A DNA stretch of 53,204 nt from Bacillota bacterium (GTDB lineage: Bacteria; Bacillota; UBA4882; UBA8346): positions 1-53,204 of the forward strand of contig JAAYEK010000034.1 in NCBI GenBank assembly GCA_012728785.1, written 5' to 3'. The position numbers were made by a program, and so were the translations under genes. The notes under the pieces were generated by a model, which saw only the letters and a list, made by a program, of their open reading frames with translations, was not told the origin of the DNA and ran no database searches. Positions 50,904 through 53,204 of this stretch are shown here, piece after piece. The first letter of the stretch is position 1; every line of letters begins with the position of its first letter.

Positions 50904-52277
50904 TTACATTGAACTAATAGGCTTCATTGTTTCATTGTGTTTCCGGTCCAATTGCTTTAACTCAAAATAAAGCCAGATGCCGGTAATCATCGAAGATCCA
51001 AAATCTGCTACTGGACCGGCGTAGTAAACACCATTTAATCCGAAAAAACGGGGTAAAATCAACAAAGCGGGGATTAAGAGCAAGACTTGCCGGGAAAGGC
51101 TCAAGATCATCGCTTGTTGGGGTTTGCCTACAGCCTGAAAGTAATTGGAGCTAATAATCTGAAAACCGATAATCGGAAGCATCATCAAATTAATCTGCAT
51201 CGCCCTTGACGAAACCTTAATCAATTCCGGATCTTGTTTGCTAAACAGACTGACTAAGCTTTCCGGAAATAGGCGGATCATGGTGAAACCAAGTAACACC
51301 ACCAGGGTAGCGGCGACAATCGCCAACTTCAAAGTCTTTTTAACCCGGTCGAACTTTTCGGCCCCATAGTTGTACCCGATAATCGGCTGCGCCCCCTGGT
51401 TAATCCCGAAGAGGGGCATCAAAAAAAACATGGCGATACTGTTGACTATTCCCATGGCGGAGATCGCCAGGTCTCCGCCATAACGGAGTAGACTAGTATT
51501 TAGTATCACCCCGATTACACTGGCAGCCATTTGCATCATAAACGGGGCGGAACCAATGGCCGTAATCTGCCGGATCACGTCTAGCTTTAATTTTAAATTA
51601 CGGATCTGAATCCTAAGATGACTCCTTTTACCGATAAAATAGGAGAGTACCCAGGCCGCCGAAGCGGCTTGAGAGATAATCGTAGCCCAAGCAGCTCCCT
51701 TAACCCCCCAACCCAAAACAAAGATGAAGATTGGATCTAAAATAGTGTTCGCAACCGCTCCCAATAACATGGTGGCCATGGCGATCTTCGGATTTCCCTC
51801 CGCCCGGATGAAATGGTTCATTCCAAAGCCGATAGACATGAAAACCTCGCCCAGTAAAATAATTTTCATATAATCGCGGGCATAAGGCAACACTTCAGCG
51901 CTGGCCCCAAAGAACAACAATAATGGGTCGAGAAAGATCAGACCCAAGGTAGTAACTGTTAAGGCGATCCCGATCAGACAGACCATAGCATTGCCGATGA
52001 TCAACTCCGCCTCCTCTTTACGCTGCTCCCCAAGGCGAATTGAGATTAAAGCAGTGGCCCCCAGACCGATTAACATTGCCAAGGCCATCATTACGGTCAT
52101 CACTGGAAAAGCGATGGTTAGCCCGGCAATCCCCATTCGGCCCACTCCTTGGCCGATAAAGATCCGGTCCACCACGTTATATAAAGCGTTAACCACCATT
52201 CCGGTAATAGCTGGAATGGAGAATTTAAGCAGTAACTTCGAAATTCTTGCTTCACCCAATTGTTTGGTATGTTCCAT
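50904..52277 (-). CDS. MATE family efflux transporter
   Basis: A 457-residue exporter with twelve predicted membrane helices in two similar halves. The family pattern is visible: ISKLLLKFSIPAITGMVVNALYNVVDRIFIG at the start, MNHFIRAEGNPKIAMATMLLGAVANTILDPIFIF in the first half and the QGAQPIIGYNYGAEKFDRVKK block in the second. Such pumps export cationic drugs or metabolites using Na+ or H+. AGGAGC precedes the ATG. No regulator is adjacent. A repeat tract (AACTTATAGTTC-AACTTATAGTTG) lies just past its stop (about 50869-50892). Confidence 0.93.
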   Translation of the reverse strand: MEHTKQLGEARISKLLLKFSIPAITGMVVNALYNVVDRIFIGQGVGRMGIAGLTIAFPVMTVMMALAMLIGLGATALISIRLGEQRKEEAELIIGNAMVCLIGIALTVTTLGLIFLDPLLLFFGASAEVLPYARDYMKIILLGEVFMSIGFGMNHFIRAEGNPKIAMATMLLGAVANTILDPIFIFVLGWGVKGAAWATIISQAASAAWVLSYFIGKRSHLRIQIRNLKLKLDVIRQITAIGSAPFMMQMAASVIGVILNTSLLRYGGDLAISAMGIVNSIAMFFLMPLFGINQGAQPIIGYNYGAEKFDRVKKTLKLAIVAATLVVLLGFTMIRLFPESLVSLFSKQDPELIKVSSRAMQINLMMLPIIGFQIISSNYFQAVGKPQQAMILSLSRQVLLLIPALLILPRFFGLNGVYYAGPVADFGSSMITGIWLYFELKQLDRKHNETMKPISSM

Positions 52278-52519
52278 GATTAGCTCCTGACTGTCGTTGA
52301 AAAAAGACTTTTTATATTATGCCCTTGAAGGATTAAATGAAATTGGAAGAATCCTACTTTATGAATTCTAACTATTTTCTGGGCGAAAAGCAAGGTGGAT
52401 TCAAGATTGTAGTTTTAATTTAACCAAAGATAATCCGGTTTTAAATAAACAAAGCCAGGGAAAGGGTGGTTAAAATTTCCATGTTTAAAATACTCTCTTC
52501 CGGTTATTCTATACTTGGG
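52278..52519. other. Gene-free leader region of the MATE gene
   Basis: AT-rich, 242 nt. I see no gene, terminator or clear promoter beyond a CATAATATAA stretch upstream of the MATE gene on the minus strand. Confidence 0.4.
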
Positions 52520-52539
52520 ATTTGTAGTGGCCGAGGCGC

Positions 52540-52960
52540 AGATTGATAACGGCTCCGTCTTAAAGACCTGAGGGTCGTTATCAGTCGAGCAACTGATCGG
52601 TATGGGTTCGATAGTAAGACCTTGCTTGGCATGGCGTTAACTTGCGGAATCCGCATAGGGAGCTGTCCATCTCCTGCAGGGAGGATCCATATCGGTCTGA
52701 GCTAGATTGTACGGGTTGGGCCAACTTATCACGGCAGTTGATGAGACTGTCGTGGTAGGGAAACTTAGTCCGTGCAGTCAAGCCTAGATTGTCACGGGAG
52801 CGAACGGGTTTGTTTGCAGTCGAAAGATTGCAGGCAGATTCCTAAGTTTCAGTGGCAGTCGATCAAAGGTTATCGTACTATGTGTAATGGGTGTTTGCAG
52901 CCGAAAGGTTGCAGGTATCCACGTAACGTGGTGCGGTAGCCGGAGATAAGGTCATTACAA
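52540..52960 (+). ncRNA. Candidate large structured RNA (strand not certain; may extend past the window)
   Basis: The segment contains at least nine nested complementary arms. Examples: TGATAACG 52544-52551 with CGTTATCA 52576-52583; GATCGGTATGG 52595-52605 with CCATATCGGTC 52687-52697; ATCACGGCAGT 52728-52738 with ACTGTCGTGGT 52746-52756; GAAACTTAG 52760-52768 with CTAAGTTTC 52842-52850 enclosing two more hairpins; two near-identical TGCAGYC-GAAA-GRTTGCA hairpins at 52815-52832 and 52896-52913; and GTAATG 52884-52889 with CATTAC 52953-52958. G-T pairs inside stems favour the plus strand, as does the GNRA (GAAA) loop reading. No start codon with a ribosome site is present. The class is not identified; a group II intron 5' part is one option. 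Confidence 0.55.
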
Positions 52961-53204
52961 GTTCCATTTATATTTAACTGATGGTTCTTTCCCTTCACTG
53001 GCTTGCTCACATAGTTCCCTTCCCCGGTGACCAGATGGTCCAAGAGTTCGATACACATGATCTTCCCCGCCTTTTTCAATCTTTGAGTGAGGAACAGATC
53101 ATCCCGGCTGGGAGTGGGATCGCCTGAAGGGGCACGAAGGGAAAATTCATGTAGAAGGGCTACGGGGGGCTAGATGGATTGTTCTACGTCGTGGGAGGAC
53201 CCGC
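52961..53204. other. Right-edge region without a recognisable gene
   Basis: Higher GC than the upstream gap, with further short inverted repeats (GTAGAA 53151-53156 with TTCTAC 53182-53187; GACCA-GA-TGGTC near 53029-53040). It probably continues the structured element. The 69-residue minus ORF (52870-53079) overlaps the stems and has no known motif. Confidence 0.35.

Follow-up and report, generated by a model that had tools for sequence, protein, structure and literature searches.

A large star-shaped noncoding RNA of endospore-forming Bacillota with a predicted forespore promoter

Is the array of nested stems at the right-hand end of a Bacillota contig part of a known element, such as a group II intron, that is cut off by the contig boundary, or is it an RNA in its own right? 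The window analyzed here, that is, the whole stretch of DNA, is one entire contig (JAAYEK010000034.1; 53,204 nt) of a 296-contig genome (GCA_012728785.1), and its right edge is the contig end. The original prediction placed a segment of a large structured RNA or intron in positions 52540-53204. We found a noncoding RNA gene on the forward strand, about 400-450 nt in length, which runs from its closing stem P1 to a U-rich tail (52517-52967) and is defined by homologues, covariation and the fold z-score. The true 5' end (52517) lies ~23 bases before the start of the predicted interval, the 3' end is at ~52967, and positions 52973-53204 are outside the RNA. The RNA is complete despite the contig end, and what was taken for a segment at the edge is a whole molecule within the window.

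The RNA gene is preceded by a divergent MATE transporter gene (50904-52277, minus strand). The earlier statement that the region carries no protein signal holds within the RNA but fails further along the interval, where a decayed RadC-like (JAB domain) coding fragment, recognized by eye, occupies the minus strand at roughly 53006-53140, at the contig end. Similar, more complete RadC-like copies are present elsewhere in the same genome (L009, L010, L011); the fragment accounts for the multi-copy DNA repeat at the contig end.

Fold, covariation and symmetry

The nested stems, G-U pairs and GAAA hairpins described originally are indeed present, and the observation is stronger than first stated. 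The segment 52526-52980 has a folding energy of -213.7 kcal/mol, compared to -140.6 +/- 5.4 kcal/mol in dinucleotide shuffles (z = -13.5), and none of the 100 shuffles was as good. An RNAalifold analysis of 20 sequences predicted 141 pairs, with compensatory changes in 100. For 58 more diverse sequences, aligned with MAFFT without structure information, the consensus contained 150 pairs, 129 of which showed changes on both sides. Paired cells made up 95.3% in the 58-sequence alignment, compared to 73.3 in shuffles and 33-43 when slid, and the covariation score was 0.704, compared to 0.267 in shuffles and 0.11-0.15 when slid. The covariation of the stems that the original prediction had proposed to look for is thus evident, and it is practically certain that the RNA family and its structure are real.

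The architecture is a star with a six-way junction, from which P1 and five arms emanate (all coordinates on the plus strand). P1 is a 16-bp stem that joins both ends of the RNA (52517-52532 paired with 52950-52965). Its 3' strand passes into a U-rich stretch (52950-52975 together) and, since a U-run follows P1 in many homologues as well, this stretch is a probable intrinsic terminator. Arms 1 and 2 have one helix of ~15 bp each, and their tips vary: arm 1 spans 52540-52586 (52540-52555 with 52571-52586), and arm 2 spans 52595-52697 (52595-52609 with 52683-52697), its tip (52610-52682) being an extension that is missing from most homologues. Arms 3, 4 and 5 each consist of two in-line 15-bp helices with an internal loop between them: (i) arm 3, 52705-52779 (52705-52720/52764-52779 and 52725-52739/52745-52759); (ii) arm 4, 52787-52860 (52787-52802/52845-52860 and 52806-52821/52826-52841), capped by a GNRA loop; (iii) arm 5, 52868-52941 (52868-52883/52926-52941 and 52888-52902/52907-52921), capped by GAAA. 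The GAAA hairpins of arms 4 and 5 are kept as GNRA loops in nearly all homologues.

The helices resemble one another in detail. Numbering P1 and the inner helices from the junction, and the outer helices from the apical loop, we found G.U wobbles predominating at positions 3, 12 and 14 in each of the nine 15-bp helices, with a mean wobble fraction of 0.80 at these positions versus 0.13 elsewhere (P<=1e-5, random profile rotations). Because many other pairs vary freely among GC, CG, AU and UA, the wobbles look selected rather than compositional. The six junction linkers have a common motif, YCGRGC(N)AAGR, from which J3 and J6 vary somewhat. The repeated helices and the common linker motif together indicate that the RNA is built of repeated modules with pseudo-six-fold order around a hub, and we infer that the repeated wobble modules form a surface for multivalent contact.

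Homologues and search for known families

By BLAST, the source genome contains one further copy, and 12 of 61 related genomes also carry the RNA. With a covariance model of arm 5, matches were found in 25 of the 29 genomes of the class and in 140 of the 399 genomes of a phylum sample; a broader covariance model raised the latter number to 171 of 399 genomes, in 118 of 267 genera. The cut-off was 0.001, at which few false positives are expected, and the best matches per genome had E ~1e-34. It should be noted that per-genome match counts in the phylum overstate the copy number, given that the model also matches other arms of the same RNA. Several copies per genome do occur in some relatives. 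The only clear tandem pair seen consists of two full copies on the same strand, ~640 bases apart (L083/L103, G011:C41:29383-30135). Another copy (L043, G008:C167) is interrupted by a run of N and includes a duplicated segment; an assembly gap is the probable cause. Phage and plasmid collections contain no match to the RNA; scanning viral contigs with 17-mers yielded 11 matches, which we estimate to be roughly the chance number, and searching viral sequences with the neighbouring MATE protein yielded none.

The Rfam search proposed originally assigned no known family: with Rfam 15, on both strands of the window, the RNA has no match at the gathering threshold or at E<=10. The only Rfam match across the whole window is a tRNA gene (RF00005, 34880-34963, plus strand). 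In 20 homologue loci, the sole Rfam match was a cobalamin riboswitch outside the RNA in one of them, and at a loose threshold five loci gave matches below gathering scores only. RNase P RNA, one of the Rfam 15 models, is not matched, and ARAGORN predicts no tRNA or tmRNA. The RNA is certainly absent from this release of Rfam. No description of it was found in the open-access literature, and a prior description elsewhere is possible. We regard the RNA class as new, "large structured noncoding RNA" being an existing descriptive kind. Being long, with a complex covarying structure and without coding potential, the RNA belongs among the large ornate noncoding RNAs; given overwhelming compensatory covariation and no family even at E<=10, the suggestion of a large ornate bacterial RNA or something new is supported.

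Promoter and link with sporulation

P1 was placed by complementarity, with 15 or 16 of 16 pairs formed in 96 loci, and 86 nonredundant copies were scored for promoter forms, using the sigma consensus letters of Bacillus subtilis. The sigma-F form GHATR-N14-17-GGNNANANTR was present within one mismatch in 67 of the 86 copies versus 0.4% of shuffles, and the sigma-G form GHATR-N16-19-CATNNTA in 43 copies versus 2.0% of shuffles. The boxes lie 2-16 bases upstream of P1 and family-wide stand at a fixed distance from the RNA 5' end, as expected of the sigma-F/sigma-G regulon. Small acid-soluble spore protein (SASP) genes of the same lineages served as a positive control: in about one third of cases, similar boxes precede the start codon by 25-35 bases. 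Promoters for sigma-A, -E, -K and -H were rejected, given that none fits above background upstream of P1: the sigma-A, sigma-E and sigma-H forms fit none of the 86 copies, and the sigma-K form occurs at background level. In the window, the family-wide pattern identifies a -35-like box GTTTA (52483-52487, plus strand; one mismatch to GHATR) and a -10-like box GGTTATTCTA (52502-52511, plus strand; one mismatch to the sigma-F form GGNNANANTR); TATTCTA, at the same -10-like box, has one mismatch to the sigma-G form CATNNTA. With two mismatches in all, this promoter is weaker than those of most homologues. On the strength of the conserved boxes, transcription of the RNA in the forespore is highly probable.

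The distribution points the same way. Reading two lists against each other for the 399 genomes of the phylum sample, we found spoIVA in 166 of 171 carriers of the RNA versus 170 of 228 non-carriers (odds ratio 11, Fisher P 7e-11, phylogeny ignored); the five carriers that lack spoIVA are draft genomes, four of them <=90% complete. This co-occurrence is support, not proof, of a link with sporulation. About half of the spoIVA-bearing genomes have no detectable copy, so the RNA is not essential to sporulation in general. The source genome has sigG and sigK, and a SASP gene (PF00269, 25819-26037, minus strand) in the window itself shows directly that the host possesses spore genes.

Several neighbourhoods are indicative of sporulation, too. 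At six loci, one of them the second copy of the source genome, sigK is encoded on the same strand 56-110 bp upstream of the RNA; in one family (f48), the RNA adjoins spoIVA, and spoVT and spoVA domains rank among the most frequent neighbours on the downstream side. In another family (f2), the weaker matches are found about 3-5 kb away from sigE, a position that makes it credible that they are true homologues. Elsewhere the neighbours vary: on each side, no protein family occurs in more than 4 of ~70 loci, so that no conserved partner emerges. Upstream genes mostly point away from the RNA (divergent) and downstream genes mostly towards it (convergent), so the RNA is an independent gene. Some extra copies of the RNA in the window's own family (L032, G003:C216; L040, G008:C319; L035, G007:C3) are located just upstream of large genes, which look like genes for methyl-accepting chemotaxis proteins.

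Possible roles and related RNAs

The best reading of these results is that the RNA is probably a forespore-transcribed architectural RNA of endospore-forming Bacillota. It would be the product of a free-standing noncoding gene without Rfam relatives, transcribed in the forespore from its own promoter by sigma-F RNA polymerase, perhaps also by sigma-G, and the transcript would stop where the P1 closing stem meets the U-rich stretch. The RNA would then fold into the star of P1 and five arms around the six-way junction, in which the ~15-bp helices, with wobbles at the same places, may offer the same recognition face on each arm, and the long arms with GNRA caps could form tertiary contacts. Accumulating in the forespore, it might bind several copies of one protein as a multivalent scaffold, or form a self-assembling RNA particle, and serve the developing or dormant spore. 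The parts of this reading differ in strength: the RNA family, its structure, symmetry and distribution are established, transcription in the forespore is highly probable, and the architectural role is put forward tentatively, the scaffold function being a guess; it is conceivable, at a similar level of doubt, that the pseudo-six-fold hub is made only in the forespore and organizes a spore-core structure via many protein copies or self-assembly. Several observations count against the best reading: the promoter of the window's own copy has two mismatches, many spoIVA-bearing genomes lack a detectable copy, and Acetohalobium arabaticum carries the RNA, though sporulation has not been observed in this species (PMC3035264).

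The forespore promoter and the distribution would fit equally well a forespore regulator of RNA polymerase or translation, comparable to 6S RNA or a ribosome-hibernation factor, instead of a scaffold, and a structured RNA that stands alone between a promoter and a terminator of its own is what one would expect of a trans-acting factor. The 6S RNA, at ~180 nt with one large bubble, resembles the star RNA in being structured, free-standing and closed by a stem; the star RNA, however, is ~400 nt long with a six-way junction, has no large open 6S-like bubble and matches no Rfam 6S model. Moreover, wobbles repeated in nine helices exceed the need of a single binding site, and we consider such a regulator unlikely. 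It is highly improbable that the RNA is a stable ribonucleotide store of the spore that is degraded at germination. The forespore-type promoter is compatible with a store, and abundant spore mRNAs have been proposed as a ribonucleotide reservoir (PMC7649253), but in a mere store the places of the wobbles, the motifs of the linkers and the GNRA loops would not be conserved across >100 genera, and a rigid fold would slow its degradation. Less probable still is a cis-regulator of neighbouring genes, for example, a 3' element of sigK, as the six same-strand loci might suggest, or an antisense RNA: elsewhere the neighbours vary, with most upstream genes divergent and most downstream genes convergent, and conserved helices lock up nearly all of the RNA. 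Finally, the group II intron domain suggested originally, or another mobile element, was rejected as having a negligible probability, in spite of the several copies per genome in some relatives, because no Rfam intron model matches either strand, the RNA has a closed P1, a promoter-like sequence and a U-rich 3' end with a terminator of its own, the 25 most frequent neighbour families of either side include no reverse transcriptase, and no phage or plasmid match was found.

Endospores have been studied mostly via their proteins. If the reading as a forespore-transcribed architectural RNA is correct, a conserved and very regular RNA whose occurrence tracks the sporulation programme across >100 Bacillota genera would represent not only a new kind of spore component but also a new class of large RNA, and one whose structure is exceptionally clear. 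For finding a partner or a mode of assembly, the repeated wobble pattern offers a direct lead, and the RNA is testable now, given the complete genomes of cultured carriers such as A. arabaticum.

Among RNAs linked to sporulation, as the star RNA is, the 294-nt sRNA Bvs196 of Bacillus velezensis (PMC9147052) and the Hfq-bound sRNAs of Clostridioides difficile, which act at sporulation initiation (PMC10267692), are noncoding as well; the star RNA itself matches no Rfam family of any kind, and Bvs196 was compared with it at the level of the published description. The raiA RNA (ModT), discussed in relation to growth, virulence and sporulation in C. difficile, is also a conserved structured RNA of Bacillota (PMC11706538), from which the star RNA differs in length, structure, neighbours and the lack of an Rfam match. 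The ROOL, GOLLD and OLE RNAs are similar in being long, highly structured, free-standing noncoding RNAs, mostly of Gram-positive bacteria, and cryo-EM has shown that they form homo-oligomers (PMC12286853, PMC11332333). Compared to these, the star RNA has a six-way junction, repeated 15-bp helices with periodic wobbles, a forespore-type promoter and sporulation neighbours, and it matches no Rfam family; by analogy, their homo-oligomers are a possible model for the star RNA.
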